This document shows, in pieces, positions 10,338 to 15,715 of a stretch of 64,000 bases of DNA. The notes under the pieces were generated by a model. It worked only from the letters and a program-made list of their open reading frames with translations. It ran no database searches and was not told where the DNA came from. Position 1 is the first letter of the stretch. The number at the start of each line of letters is the position of its first letter. Source of the stretch: Desulfuromonadales bacterium (lineage in GTDB: Bacteria; Desulfobacterota; Desulfuromonadia; Desulfuromonadales; BM103); contig JAQYVZ010000002.1 of assembly GCA_030145205.1 (NCBI GenBank), positions 62,001-126,000 of the forward strand, in the 5' to 3' direction. Position numbers and translations under genes: made by a program.

Positions 10338-11062
10338 TGCTGCTCTCGATTGAAAACCTCGAGGTCAAGTACGGGAATATCCAGGCGCTGCATGGAATCA
10401 GCTTCCATGTCAACGAAGGTGAGATTGTCACCTTGATTGGCGCCAACGGTGCCGGCAAAACGACAAGCCTCTACAGCATTTGCCGTCTGCCTCCACCGGA
10501 AGCGCCGCGCGTGATCGCCGGCGATATCAAATTTCATGGTGAATCAATCCTTAAAACACGCCCCAGTGACATAGTCAAACAATTCAATATGGCTCTGGTT
10601 CCTGAAGGTCGACATATTTTCGGCAACCTGACTGTCATGGAGAATCTTGAAATTGCCACTTACTCACGTGAAAAAGGGACAAATTTCGATGAGGAGTATC
10701 AGCGCATCTTTGATCTCTTTCCTCGGCTGCATGAACGCCGGAAACAACGCAGTGAATCTCTTTCTGGTGGAGAACAACAGATGCTGGCGGTCGGCAGGGC
10801 TTTGATGACCGGCTGCAACTTCCTTTTGCTAGACGAACCTTCCATGGGACTTGCACCTCTACTGAAGTACGAACTTTTCCGGACCCTGAAGAAGCTCAAC
10901 GAAGAAGGCATGACGATCCTGCTGGTTGAACAGAACGCTAACCTCGCCCTCCACCTTGCTCATCGAGGTTATGTACTGGATACCGGGGAAATTGCGGCAG
11001 AAGGGACCAGTGAGGAGTTGCTCGGCAACCCAGACGTCAAAAAAGCTTACCTGGGGGGATAA
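10337..11062 (+). CDS. livF: branched-chain amino-acid ABC transporter ATPase
   Basis: Second ATP-binding subunit (241 aa), pairing with LivG. Walker A is GANGAGKTT, the signature is LSGGEQQMLAVGRAL, Walker B is FLLLDEPSMGL and the switch His position is a glutamine-rich LLVEQNANLAL as usual for LivF. Last gene of the operon; a strong terminator follows 33 bases after the stop. Confidence 0.92.
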   Translation: MLLSIENLEVKYGNIQALHGISFHVNEGEIVTLIGANGAGKTTSLYSICRLPPPEAPRVIAGDIKFHGESILKTRPSDIVKQFNMALVPEGRHIFGNLTVMENLEIATYSREKGTNFDEEYQRIFDLFPRLHERRKQRSESLSGGEQQMLAVGRALMTGCNFLLLDEPSMGLAPLLKYELFRTLKKLNEEGMTILLVEQNANLALHLAHRGYVLDTGEIAAEGTSEELLGNPDVKKAYLGG

Positions 11063-11094
11063 AACATCTCATTGTACACCCAGCCTGTTCTACA

Positions 11095-11126
11095 AGCGGG
11101 ACCCCTGATCTGGGTCCCGCTTTTTT
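11095..11126 (+). terminator. terminator of the liv operon
   Basis: AGCGGGACCC and GGGTCCCGCT form a 10-bp perfect stem around a seven-base loop, followed directly by a run of T. It marks the end of livKHMGF. Confidence 0.9.
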
Positions 11127-11474
11127 ATTCATCAGCTGTCGATTCCCTTTTAGCATATCAAGTATAGACACACCTAACACCCTACCTCAGGACTTGGGTT
11201 TTCCGCTCCATCATGCAACTTATAAAATTTACATTCCTCATTCTTAATAAAGTATTCAACATATATATTCACCCATAAAGTTAAGCAGTTATGTCGTAAT
11301 ATCAAACACTTATGTCTATCACACTAAAATCATTCAAAAAATCGAATTCATTAATTTTTTTTTACCTCTTGAAATGCAGATTAATTTGGAGCAAGATGAA
11401 AACATTAATGAGCACCAATTGTGTTCATTCACAGATCGTCATTGCTACTTTTTTCCAATTTTGGGAGGTCATCA
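11127..11474. other. A+T-rich intergenic region
   Basis: About 350 bases, markedly richer in A+T than the neighbours, between the liv terminator and the rhodanese gene. Open frames inside it look like chance. A promoter for the rhodanese gene should lie here, but no pair of boxes stands out. No repeat or structured RNA was recognised. Confidence 0.5.
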
Positions 11475-12227
11475 ATGAAGGTTCCAACTTTAATGAAAGC
11501 AACATGTCTTTTAGCGTTAGCCCTCTGCGCCTGCCTGTTGTCGGTTACTCCGGTGTTCAGTGCATCACCAAGCGAGGTAACCGCTGAGCAGGTCAAGGAA
11601 ATGATGGACACCAACCAGGCTCTGGTGGTTTATCCGTTGAGCCTTCTCGAATTCAACAGCCTGCACATCAAAGGTTCAGTCCATATTCCGACCGAGCACA
11701 TTTCAGAGGAGTTGCCGGCAGACAAAGCTCAACCCCTGGTATTTTACTGCCTGGGCTTCACCTGAACGGCCTCCCTCGATACCGCCAGGTTGGCGGTTAA
11801 TGCTGGCTATCAAAATGTCTATGTATTTCGCGGTGGGCTGCCTGAATGGATCAAAGCTGGTTATCCAACAGAAACAACGGATCCACTACCGAAGATTGAT
11901 GTCCCATCCGTTTCAGTCCAAGAGCTCAAGGAACTTCTAGATTCGGATAACGAAATCATCCTACTAGATACCCGCCGTGATGGTGATGCAGCAAAATATT
12001 GGATTTCCTGCCCTCAAAGACTTCACATGTCAATGCACGATCTCGTTGTTAAATATGCTGAACTACCGAAGGATAAAAAGTTGTTTATTCTCGACAAGGG
12101 TGGAAAACGCTGCGGCCTGATATCACGCTTTCTGGCCTCCAAAGGGCTCAATGATCTCACCTTGGTTACCGGCGGCATGAAACAGTGGGTCAAAAGCGGC
12201 CTGCCAACGGAAATTGCTAAAAAGTAA
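11475..12227 (+). CDS. probable selenocysteine-containing periplasmic rhodanese (two domains)
   Basis: A 251-codon frame (250 aa plus stop) that is continuous except for one in-frame TGA at codon 97 (11763-11765). A ribosome site GGGAGG precedes the ATG and a signal peptide covers about residues 1-34 (cleavage near VFSA). Domain 1 (about 38-140) has the rhodanese strand LVFYCLGFT, then the TGA, then TASLDTARLAVNAGYQNVYVFRG. In related rhodaneses this loop reads YC-x-G-x-x-C-x-x-S, so the TGA falls exactly at the second Cys. Domain 2 (about 145-250) has LFILDKGGKRCG with Asp at the usual catalytic Cys and a Cys further on. A hairpin of bacterial SECIS type lies 16 bases after the TGA. A pseudogene or a sequencing error is the alternative, but nothing else in the frame is damaged. 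Confidence 0.75.
11763..11797 (+). promoter_or_regulatory. UGA codon and bacterial SECIS-like hairpin
   Basis: After the UGA at 11763-11765, ACCGCC (11781-11786) and GGCGGU (11792-11797) form a perfect 6-bp stem with loop AGGUU. The loop begins 21 bases after the UGA and has G at its second and third positions. Known bacterial SECIS elements have a short stem just downstream of the UGA with a G early in the apical loop, as in fdhF, whose loop also contains GGU. A short lower stem (GCC 11769-11771 with GGC 11804-11806) is possible. Confidence 0.65.
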
Positions 12228-12336
12228 TCAGGCAGAGGGAGACATTGCAACAAAAGCGCGACAATATTAAATAACCAAAAACTGGAACCTTCGGGGACAA
12301 CTGCAAATTGCGGCAAAAATCCTAACGGAGAATACA

Positions 12337-14457
12337 ATGCTTGACCAATTAAAAATTTCAATGAAATTACTCATCGGTTTTGGCGCAGTGTTGGCCCTGA
12401 TGGCGATGGTCAGTTGGTTTAACATCTCCAATTCCGGCAAAATCAGCCGACAAGTCGATCATGTCAAAGAGGTTCGCTACCAAGTTGCGATTGATACAAT
12501 CAACGCAATTAACCTTTCTGAAAAAATCCTGAGCAAACTTGTCAACGCTGCCGAAGCCGCAGTTATGGCCCCGCTTCAATCTGCAGAGCAGAACAAAGAG
12601 GTGCTACTCCCGAATCTGGAAACACTTTCTCGCTCACTCAAAGAGGATCAGATCCTGGCAGAAAAGCTTGAACAGTTCCGCGCCCTGTTTGAAGCATGTT
12701 TCGAAAACGGCAAGCAGATGGTGCAACACTCCGTCAATCAAGAATTGTTCGAGTATGTTGCATCACGTGATGAATATCAGAAATATTTTCAAGAACTGGA
12801 AAAAGCCGCGGCAGAACTTAACGTTTTGGTTTCTAAGGCGCTGTACGAGACATTGGAGCAAATCAACCAGGTCTCAGAAAAAAATGTTCAATGGAGCCGT
12901 TACCTGACCTTGTTCGGCTTGATCCTGGGTTTTGCACTGTCTGTTATTATTTCCAGGAACATCGCTAATCCGATGAAACATCTTGTTGATGTCATCGTTG
13001 ACATCGGACACGGCAACCTGTCGAAGCGTGTCTGTATCAACCGTGGTGATGAAATTGGTCAGGTTGCTTCAGCAATGGACGAAATGGCGGAAAAACTGGG
13101 GCAGATGGTCAAGCGCGTCCGCGCCTCCTCAGAAGAATTCACAAACGTTTCCGGAGCAGTTTCGGACGCAGCCAAGTCCGTGTCGGCATCCGCAAAAAAC
13201 CAGGAAGAGAGCATTGAAAGCACCTCAGGTGCGATTGTCGAAATCGGGGCGTCTATTGAGAGCGTTGCTCAGAATGTCGACAGCTTGAACGTATCTGCTT
13301 CAGACAGCACCTCTTCCTCTCTGGAAATGGCCTCAAGCATCGAAGAAGTTGCCGAAAACTCCCTGCGCCTGGCGAATGCCGTTGAAAGCATCGGTTCCTC
13401 CATTCACGAAATGGCCAGTGCGGTCACCCAGGTTGCCGGCAACGCCGAGCAACTGAAAAAGACTTCGGACGCAACATCATCAACCGTTGCTGAAATGGAT
13501 GCGACCATCAAACAAGTTGACGAACATGCTCACGAGACGGCGCGCTCCACAGCTGAGGTTCTTCAGGACGCCCGACAGGGCCAGGATTCTGTTGAAAAGA
13601 CCATCGCCGGGATTACCCAGATCAAGAGTTCATCCCATATTACCTCTGAGGCCGTTGGCAACCTCGCAGAGAAAGTTAAGGACATCGGATCAATTCTGGC
13701 GGTTATCGACGAAATAACCGAACAGACCAACCTGCTGGCCCTGAATGCCGCTATCATCTCCGCCCAGGCGGGACAGCACGGTAAAGGATTTGCGGTTGTC
13801 GCCGATGAAATTCGTGAGCTATCAGAGCGAACCAGTCAATCAACCCGTAAAATCGAAGAAGTGATTGCAGATGTTCAAAGGGAAACAGCTAGAGCGGTCA
13901 ATGCAATCAAACAAACTGAAACAATTGTCGGTGAAGGAGAACAGCTTTCACTGCAATCAGGAAACATGCTGGGCAAGATTGTGTCCGGCGTAGAGGACAG
14001 CTCAGGACGGGTTGACCATATTGTCAGGACCACTGTAGAGCAGGCACAAGCCAGCAAGCTGATGCGTGAGTCGATGGAAAAGGTCTCTGAAATGGTCGCG
14101 CAGATTGCTTCTGCAACCAAGCAGCAGGACCAAGGAGCCAGGTCGATCACCTCAGCCACAGAGTTGATTGCAGAGCTGACAGAGCAAGTCAAAAACTCAA
14201 CTCGTGAACAAAGTCAATCCAGTCAAGCCATCGGCCAGGCCATGGAAAAGATGAGTGGTTTGGTTCAACATGTGAAAACAGCCTGCGATCAACAAAACGA
14301 GGAAAGTTCCAACATTGTTCAGGCTGTGGATGGCATCAAAGACTCCGCCAGGGGAAATGTCACTTCCGTCAATTCCCTGAATAGTGCTGTCGAAAAATTG
14401 AGTCACGAGATCATCGTTCTCCAAGAGGAGATGGCTGCATTCAGGATTGAGGAATAA
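12337..14457 (+). CDS. methyl-accepting chemotaxis protein
   Basis: Transmembrane chemoreceptor of 706 aa. One membrane segment lies at about 8-28, a helical periplasmic sensor at 30-185 (four-helix-bundle type by its pattern), a second membrane segment at about 188-209, HAMP at 210-262, and a long helical signalling domain. The hairpin tip contains [12 protein letters not shown] and [18 protein letters not shown], with the common EAARAG stretch here reading ISAQAG. The ligand is unknown. It begins 109 bases after the rhodanese gene on the same strand, with CGGAG ahead of the ATG; co-transcription is possible. A bidirectional terminator follows. Confidence 0.92.
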
Positions 14458-14493
14458 ACATATTCCACAGAGTTCTTCTCCCTTCTTCTTCCG

Positions 14494-14534
14494 ACATAAA
14501 AAAACAGAGCCAACCAGGCCCTGTTTTTTTATGT
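14494..14534. terminator. terminator after the chemoreceptor gene
   Basis: ACATAAAAAAACAG pairs with CTGTTTTTTTATGT over 14 bases, with an inner GCC/GGC stem around AACCA. The A and T tracts make it workable in both directions. Confidence 0.85.
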
Positions 14535-14746
14535 TTCTCCTTGAGCCTTTGCAGAAATTTTATCATCGTACAGCATGTTATTTCAGATTGGGCGTCCGGA
14601 GGTTCAAATGATGATATTTAACGTTTATTGCGCTGCAAAAAGCTTGCATCATGAACCTTCAAGTGGTTGGATAGACGGCGCCAAATGAACTAACGTAGAC
14701 ACTTGGATATGGACACCCGCCATTCCGTTTCACCACATCGGACGAC

Positions 14747-15715
14747 ATGCCAACACTGCCTCAAAACCTATTAAAGTTCCTACAAAAGCTCCTGAACGAT
14801 GCCATCAGGACCAGCTTAACTCTTTTCAAAATCACGATTCCGATCAGTATCCTGACGAAACTTTTGACGGAGTTTGGCTTGATAGACCAGCTCGGCAGGG
14901 CACTCGGACCGATCATGGAATTGGTTGGTCTACCGGGGAGCATGGGTCTGGTCTGGGCCACCGCAATGGTGACTCATCTCTACGGCGGCATGATCGTATT
15001 TGCTTCACTAGCCCCGGACGCCAACCTGACTGTCGCCCAGGTAACGATACTGACCACCATGATGCTGGTTGCCCATGCCTTGCCGATTGAGCTTCGAATC
15101 GCGCAGAAAGCCGGTACCCGTTTCAGGGTCATGGCCACGTTGCGCCTCGTAGGGGCCTTCTCTCTTGGCTGGCTGCTGTTTCAGTTCTACCGGATCACAG
15201 ATACGCTGCAAACAGCCAATCAATCCTTCTGGAGCCCACCACAACAGGACCCATCCTGGATCGTCTGGCTGGTCGGAGAAGTCAGGAACCTGTTGTCGAT
15301 TTTCCTGATTATCCTCTGTTTACTTTTCATTATGCGCATCCTTGAGAAGATCGGCATTATTTCGCTCATGACCAAACTTCTGAGACCGATTCTCTCTCTG
15401 CTCGGTATCAGTAAGGAAGCTGCACCACTGACCATCATCGGTATGACTCTGGGTATCAGCTACGGCGGCGGTCTGATCATTCAGGAAGCCCAGACCGGCA
15501 ATCTGACCAAACAGGACGTCTTCTATTCGATGGCACTGATGGGCCTGTGCCACAGCGTGTTTGAAGACACCATGCTGATGATGGTTCTCGGTGGACACCT
15601 CTCCGGTATCCTCTGGGCGCGACTGGTCTTTGCCCTCCTTTGCACTGCTCTGCTGGTTCGACTTGCCAGGCGAATTCCGACTGCAACATTCAACCGCTAT
15701 TTGGTCCGTCCCTGA
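14747..15715 (+). CDS. nucleoside-recognition (Gate) domain membrane protein
   Basis: Integral membrane protein of 322 aa with two related halves, each holding the hydrophobic Gate / nucleoside-recognition domain also seen in spore-maturation proteins SpmA and SpmB and in FeoB. Typical strings are TIPISILTKLLTEFGLID, GSMGLVWATAMVTHLYGG, and in the second half GMTLGISYGGGLIIQEA and GLCHSVFEDTMLMM. The transported substance is not known for this family. It ends about 60 bases before the promoter of the tetR gene and is on the same strand. Confidence 0.8.
   Translation: MPTLPQNLLKFLQKLLNDAIRTSLTLFKITIPISILTKLLTEFGLIDQLGRALGPIMELVGLPGSMGLVWATAMVTHLYGGMIVFASLAPDANLTVAQVTILTTMMLVAHALPIELRIAQKAGTRFRVMATLRLVGAFSLGWLLFQFYRITDTLQTANQSFWSPPQQDPSWIVWLVGEVRNLLSIFLIILCLLFIMRILEKIGIISLMTKLLRPILSLLGISKEAAPLTIIGMTLGISYGGGLIIQEAQTGNLTKQDVFYSMALMGLCHSVFEDTMLMMVLGGHLSGILWARLVFALLCTALLVRLARRIPTATFNRYLVRP

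Follow-up and report, generated by a model that had tools for sequence, protein, structure and literature searches.

A predicted two-domain rhodanese-like selenoprotein whose gene adjoins a chemoreceptor gene in a Desulfuromonadales bacterium

In the window, that is the whole stretch of 64,000 nucleotides of Desulfuromonadales DNA analysed here, the forward-strand gene at 11475–12227 encodes a two-domain rhodanese-like protein of 250 residues with a signal-like N terminus. Its in-frame UGA at codon 97 is almost certainly decoded as selenocysteine (Sec) by the cell's own SelA, SelB, SelD and tRNA-Sec, using a downstream hairpin, as judged from comparative sequence analysis. What is new here is the pairing of this rhodanese selenoprotein gene with the chemoreceptor gene at 12337–14457, suggesting that a selenium protein helps the cell to sense sulfur or redox chemistry.

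The frame, read directly, starts with the ATG at 11475 and ends with the TAA at 12225–12227. Its single TGA is codon 97 (11765–11767), lying within F-Y-C-L-G-F-T-U, and the read-through protein runs M...F90-Y91-C92-L-G-F-T-U97-T-A-S...K250. A ribosome binding site, GGGAGG, was read at 11463–11468 ahead of the ATG, and approximately the first 30 residues (11475–11564) form a hydrophobic signal-like N terminus, predicted from sequence only and modelled as a helix (H5–22) with lower pLDDT; the protein is probably exported. An earlier sequence-only reading had claimed the ribosome site, the signal peptide and a lone TGA in a frame running through to the stop; the ribosome site and the TGA were found as described, and the N terminus is signal-like. 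With the TGA read through, one scan with PF00581 (cut-off 22.2 bits) gave 78.5 bits in two matching stretches. Rhodanese domain 1 (residues 36–127, 11580–11855; PF00581 and AlphaFold model) carries the loop C92-L-G-F-T-U97, and rhodanese domain 2 covers approximately residues 145–244 (11907–12206; PF00581, NCBIfam and AlphaFold model, the latter with a mean pLDDT of 92.3). The best solved matches are rhodaneses, 6mxv being on top both by sequence (E 7e-26) and by fold (E 3.8e-17). This two-domain protein of Francisella tularensis, catalogued as an ordinary rhodanese-like protein, differs however from the window protein in its sequence (23% identity) and in its whole-chain TM of 0.45, and the domain packing of the modelled window protein is probably different. 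The usual rhodanese motif at one site of domain 1 is D-x-R, where the near family has P-L-S. A second copy of the gene, 57% identical at the protein level and likewise carrying UGA97, is present in the window's own genome.

In the following, L-numbers denote loci and G-numbers genomes. A search of 136 genomes of the order (E 1e-25 or better) retrieved 28 family matches in 27 genomes. TGA was present in 13 of the 28, always aligned at the codon 97 column, and absent from 15; 12 of these are near relatives with YCLGxxC, and the remaining three, which are less closely related, likewise carry Cys at that column. Cys or UGA at codon 97 of relatives, together with selA, selB, selC and selD in the genome, had been named beforehand as checks on the prediction: UGA was found in 13 matches and Cys in 12 near relatives, and selA, selB, selD and tRNA-Sec were all detected. 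A TAA flagged in four order rows as a second recoded stop was ruled out, being the true gene end. In the window genome, tRNA-Sec scored 76.8 bits, selA 601, selB 402 and selD 369, all above the curated cut-offs, and the three sel genes are adjacent on one contig. The selD gene beside selA and selB (L044, G000:C248:12346-13269) has itself an in-frame TGA, and SelD of this genome is probably a selenoprotein too. tRNA-Sec was detected in 23 of the 25 genomes of family members and missed in G024 and G076, both of them drafts with the UGA gene. All twelve genomes of Cys members also contain it, so that its presence supports decoding and does not separate the two groups.

A hairpin of the bacterial SECIS (bSECIS) type, ACCGCC-AGGUU-GGCGGU, lies at 11783–11799 on the forward strand. 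As previously claimed, it has a 6-bp stem whose first base is the 16th past the TGA (a 15-base spacer), the letters ACCGCC-AGGTT-GGCGGT being read directly. A G early in the loop is typical of bSECIS elements and is present here (A-G-G-U-U). The protein motif A-A-x-x-A-A/V favours such a stem, the protein sequence alone making approximately 4.7 of the six pairs likely, and synonymous codon shuffles were therefore used as comparison. For the window gene alone these gave P = 0.13 for pairs and 0.007 for energy; its hairpin was rejected as a stand-alone proof, given the bias of the protein sequence towards these pairs. When each close cluster was represented by a single gene, the resulting 12 Sec genes formed 70 of the 72 pairs versus 54.5 expected (z 6.1), with an energy z of -5.7; the identical test on 16 Cys genes gave z 1.5 for pairs and +0.4 for energy. 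The stem register is constant in the 15 Sec genes compared (87/90 pairs). In the alignment of 13 distinct Sec rows, pairing holds in 75 of 78 cells; no shuffle out of 500 attained this percentage, the seven cells changed on both sides or the covariation score (0/500 each). The number of pair types was reached by 21/500 shuffles, and two pairs had changes on both sides, which does not exceed chance (253/500). In the control of 12 Cys rows no covariation measure was in excess, with 326/500 shuffles as high in pairing. Another 11 Sec genes, having other loops or belonging to distant branches, formed all six pairs in this register in four cases and three to five pairs in seven; the elements of these seven, if any, are positioned differently. 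Taken over the Sec genes, these comparisons indicate a hairpin selected beyond what the protein sequence demands, without such selection in the Cys genes.

Substitutions on both sides of the UGA were also compared. Between L142 and L144, 57 of 80 differences after the UGA fall at third positions (15, 8 and 57 by position 1, 2 and 3) and 19 of 29 before it (7, 3 and 19); between L146 and L149 the corresponding values are 55 of 74 (13, 6 and 55) and 21 of 30 (6, 3 and 21). L147 and L148 are very closely related; past the UGA they show 8 differences (4, 1 and 3 by position) with no third-position bias (3/8) and a dN/dS of 0.49, and this pair neither supports nor opposes selection there. dN/dS could be compared on both sides for three Sec pairs, other pairs being saturated on at least one side: before and after the UGA it was 0.155 and 0.084 for L142/L144, 0.063 and 0.056 for L146/L149, and 0.077 and 0.077 for L146/L147. 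The surrounding genes follow the standard bacterial code, in which UGA means stop, and a broken gene, with a real stop at codon 97 and a decaying downstream part, would accord with it; we regard this as very improbable in view of the same UGA codon in 13 order matches, the third-position bias persisting after it in most pairs, the hairpin under selection, and tRNA-Sec and selABD in the genome. Least credible of all is a sequencing or assembly error replacing a Cys codon by TGA: although the window genome is available as a 317-contig draft, the UGA is shared with the paralogue and 11 further genomes of the order, and stands in the same column in DAOVNV010000217.1, JADGDX010000042.1 and JADGEB010000005.1, among others. 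The proposal of a probable selenoprotein is thus upheld by the UGA or Cys in one column of relatives, the sel machinery and the selection on the hairpin.

Position 97 corresponds to the Arg of the usual C-x4-R rhodanese loop. Sec at this sixth loop position (C-x-x-x-x-U) was also found elsewhere, in the loops YCMGVRU, YCNGFKU, YCSGSSU, YCKGYRU, YCEGPRU and YCMGLDU, and the same slot is used in the double-Sec loops YUMGYTU and YUAGLTU, the latter of TsoB. On a tree of 52 rows, Sec/Cys requires at least six changes, five of which are forced by well-supported branches, and these changes mark the sixth loop slot, as far as sequences can tell, as a point of repeated Sec/Cys exchange. The tree left out eight rows of other architecture (L238, L256, L257, L259, L261, L263, L264 and L266), L257 being the one among them whose neighbours were inspected; nine TGA-less relatives (L241–L244, L246–L249 and L255) fall outside the loop pattern, and Cys relatives are under-sampled. 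At the phylum level, 395 genomes taken from a larger group were searched, with part of the candidates scored. The rhodaneses of six genomes from one genus of the class, that of G252, revealed no TGA. In L240 (G536) the loop reads FFCKGLPTU, with Sec six residues after Cys, hence one residue further, and all six stem pairs are formed.

The sequence-only reading had spoken of a new selenoprotein; the selenoprotein part stands, while 'new' says too much about the kind: rhodanese selenoproteins are already in print (PMC13188914, PMC9312934 and PMC2398784), and the slot in question holds Sec in TsoB as well. TsoB (NCBIfam NF045694), a rhodanese/DsbD fusion-like selenoprotein credited in PMC13188914 to Haft and Tolstoy 2025, reads FYUAGLTUVRS, as judged from six of eight stored loci, where the window protein reads FYCLGFTUTAS. 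It differs by an additional Sec in the first slot and by a membrane part resembling DsbD; the window protein, for its part, has a second rhodanese domain. The window protein was rejected as an NF045694 member, scoring 59.8 bits against a cut-off of 805 and having neither the DsbD-like part nor two Sec. Its best NCBIfam match is rhodanese_LYCAU (NF041203), at 77.7 bits, which shares Cys and Sec in the loop but is a single domain with Sec two residues past the Cys ('form 3', CxU, in PMC13188914). This assignment was also rejected, the score being below the cut-off of 115 and the loop being YC-x4-U and not YC-x-U. Bit scores were set against these two cut-offs for the window protein only; in alignment A2 all 26 members match both NF041203 and NF045694 at E 1e-5 or better. 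NF041203 exceeds its cut-off in 60 of the 395 phylum genomes, with a YC-x-U or YU-x-U loop in 29 of 30 stored loci. Five rhodanese selenoprotein forms (UxxS, UxxG, CxU, UxxG and UxxxxU) are tabulated in PMC13188914, and the string 'CxxxxU' is absent from its text. Form 1 (UxxS, WP_010941598.1; PMC13188914), compared by its description only, may use the same slot, the window loop also reading U-x-x-S. ExtH of G. sulfurreducens, considered as a possible relative, is a protein of 49 kDa (PMC5877670). The window family is set apart by its two rhodanese domains, with Cys92/Sec97 in the first and Asp207 at the catalytic Cys site of the second.

Other selenoprotein genes of this fold were noticed in the same searches. 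In the window's genome, L222 (G000:C75) and L223 (G000:C199) are single-domain rhodanese genes with YCTU loops, and the genome probably encodes at least four rhodanese selenoproteins of two loop types. L199, L205, L209 and L220 are of the NF041203 type with YUTU or YUAU loops, hence two TGA per loop, and in L225, L226 and L231 a YC-x-U rhodanese domain follows an apparent multi-pass membrane domain, as judged by eye. L263 (G427) has two TGA and the loop YUMGYTU, in the double-Sec plan of TsoB, in a frame of 282 residues that is too short for a DsbD part.

In domain 2, the site of the catalytic Cys is occupied by Asp207 (12093–12095), within DKGGKR, where the near Cys clade has CLKGKR or a variant of it; the loss of the usual Cys, already pointed out from the sequence, was confirmed by alignment. 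Asp is found in all 13 Sec members of the order, and Cys (CLKGKR and variants) in all 12 near Cys members. In the wider set of 52, the combinations of slot and domain 2 residue are Sec-Asp in 18, Sec-Cys in three, Cys-Asp in eight and Cys-Cys in 23, the states of L156 and L062 having been set by eye from their sequences before the tree analysis. Only two Asp/Cys changes occur on the tree. The idea that Sec brought about the Asp was rejected: among five independent pairs, one or two go the same way, none the opposite way and the rest are alike, and eight Cys members have Asp. These two changes, unlinked to Sec in the five pairs, identify the Asp in our alignments as an old clade mark and not a by-product of Sec, and we infer that domain 2 is a catalytically dead pseudo-domain.

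The gene located 109 bases downstream on the same strand (12337–14457) encodes a chemoreceptor (methyl-accepting chemotaxis protein) of 706 aa, with a sensor at approximately residues 1–204, HAMP at 205–254 and MCPsignal at 409–586 (Pfam; 127 bits for the latter). A terminator-like hairpin at 11094–11122 (forward strand) closes the upstream ABC-transporter operon and separates it from the rhodanese and receptor genes; the terminator scan of 11000–15000 found no other, hence none between these two genes. The neighbours were then surveyed with a receptor profile against six-frame translations of 58 regions. A same-strand chemoreceptor gene adjoins 18 of the 24 Asp-type members with visible flanks (the window gene, L027, L142, L144–L150, L237, L238b, L239, L059, L060, L061, L064 and L066), L010 and L063 lying at contig ends and outside the 24. 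That of L147 is a fragment at a contig end, and that of L064 is a weaker match confirmed by Pfam, which was also run on seven of the other 17. Beside four more Asp-type members (L062, L151, L272 and L273) a histidine-kinase gene was found, which in L272 and L273 comes after a second rhodanese selenoprotein gene; neither chemoreceptor nor kinase was found as a neighbour of L143 and L240, both Sec and Asp. On the contrary, a chemoreceptor adjoins none of the 26 members with a Cys-type domain 2, several of them with one side visible, and their loci hold one chemoreceptor match in 303 kb, 3.9 kb away in L304. Fisher's P for 18/24 versus 0/26 is 7e-9, but, the rows being related and only two Asp/Cys changes underlying them, it measures the strength of conservation and not many independent events.

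Kinase-like matches occur somewhere in seven of the 26 Cys-type loci (L051, L292, L296, L305, L308, L309 and L311). Pfam analysis of nine neighbours in six Cys-type loci identified a PAS histidine kinase as the next gene in L292, approximately 370 bases downstream, and a response regulator approximately 330 bases downstream in L296. L257, which has Sec and a Cys in a differently built domain 2 and is outside the counts, has a kinase next door. Receptor pairing is hence not exclusive to the Asp type, given the kinases of L257 and L292. Seven Cys members of the Asp type are also paired with a receptor, so that Sec is not essential to the pairing, and in the compared loci the receptor link follows the domain 2 Asp and not Sec. 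The window gene has both marks of the proposed receptor-linked group, namely the domain 2 Asp and an adjoining same-strand receptor, and its genome holds two rhodanese-receptor pairs. Further arrangements were observed: in L315 and L316 (the L272 and L273 loci) tandem rhodanese selenoproteins, with YCMGLDU or YCMGHDU followed by FHCLSDRU or FHCLSERU, stand between an apparent response regulator gene (by eye) and a histidine kinase gene, and in L280 (G041) and L281 (G040) the rhodanese is flanked by chemoreceptor genes on both sides. The upstream one in L280 has a 4HB sensor and a weak chemoreceptor zinc-binding match below the Pfam cut-off. Titles and the beginnings of abstracts under open licence showed no sign of a rhodanese or selenoprotein tied to chemotaxis, which may be in print elsewhere, and the accessible part of PMC3543383 reports no rhodanese-chemotaxis pair.

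Ten Sec-linked receptors have sensor domains that can be aligned over their full length, with 20–75% identity; between the window pair and the paralogue pair the sensors are 55% identical and the rhodaneses 57%. A profile built from these ten and run on the 58 regions (E < 1e-3) matched only receptors within approximately 2 kb of a rhodanese of the window family. Beyond the training set it matched six Cys-linked chemoreceptors, divergent chemoreceptors in L299 (approximately 0.3 kb) and L298 (1.8 kb), and, with 69 bits, the kinase beside L062, which has the same sensor with a different output. The L064 receptor was missed (E 0.005). As the 58 regions hold few unrelated receptors, the association between sensor and rhodanese is supportive.

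Based on these data, the reading we favour, by a little over even odds, is that the selenoprotein is the periplasmic sensing partner of the adjoining receptor, with Cys92/Sec97 as a chalcogen or redox switch. For the role of the window protein as periplasmic sensing partner of the chemoreceptor encoded beside it, taken by itself, the chances seem evenly balanced. Somewhat more tentatively, two-domain rhodaneses with a dead domain 2 may form dedicated pairs with receptors (chemoreceptors, sometimes histidine kinases), Sec being the sensing residue in the Desulfuromonadales branch and the Cys/Sec pair responding reversibly to chalcogens or to redox state in the periplasm. In such a mechanism, Cys92 would be loaded by an oxidant or by a compound of sulfane sulfur or selenium; Sec97, whose closeness to the catalytic Cys suits a resolving residue, would resolve the loaded Cys92, forming a selenenylsulfide and liberating sulfide; the receptor sensor domain would distinguish the two protein states; and the rhodanese would be reset by a thiol system of the periplasm. 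In TsoB, both loop slots of the rhodanese hold Sec, and a part that NCBIfam names DsbD-like is joined to it, a combination that fits a reducible pair; this plan suggests that a Cys/Sec-type pair can be re-reduced by a membrane electron relay. Pairs of a periplasmic binding protein and a chemoreceptor similarly consist of a soluble periplasmic partner and a transmembrane receptor. The window pair resembles them in having a soluble partner, predicted here to be periplasmic, beside a transmembrane receptor, and differs in the rhodanese fold and the Cys/Sec pair of that partner.

Gene adjacency does not amount to interaction, and that of the receptor rests on few independent events, because the Asp/Cys state changes only twice on the tree; domain 1 could also be an ordinary enzyme. 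A lesser but serious possibility is a selenoenzyme, either a periplasmic persulfide/polysulfide reductase or a sulfurtransferase, in which Sec97 would resolve the Cys92 persulfide and the receptor gene would be only co-regulated, for example for movement to the same substrate. The rhodanese fold and loop are indeed retained, both loop slots are common to TsoB, and the existence of Cys-type relatives without receptor neighbours indicates a protein able to work alone; against it, receptor pairing is kept across members approximately 30–57% identical to the window protein, Asp replaces the domain 2 Cys throughout the chemoreceptor-linked group, and the near family lacks the usual D-x-R in domain 1. 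That Sec serves in the delivery of sulfur or selenium to a periplasmic acceptor, as the sequence-only reading had proposed, would agree with the rhodanese homology but appears improbable, the recurrent neighbour in the compared loci being a receptor, with no recurrent acceptor or biosynthetic gene seen among their shared clusters. The gene neighbourhood points more to signalling than to sulfur or selenium transfer.

These results add a well-supported selenoprotein subfamily that comes with its own in-family set of Cys controls, and reveal one position of the rhodanese-fold loop where Sec and Cys have been swapped repeatedly. If the link between the predicted sensing partner and its receptor is functional, selenocysteine would enter signal perception and movement, beyond metabolism, and the ligand would be testable, since each paired locus names both partners.
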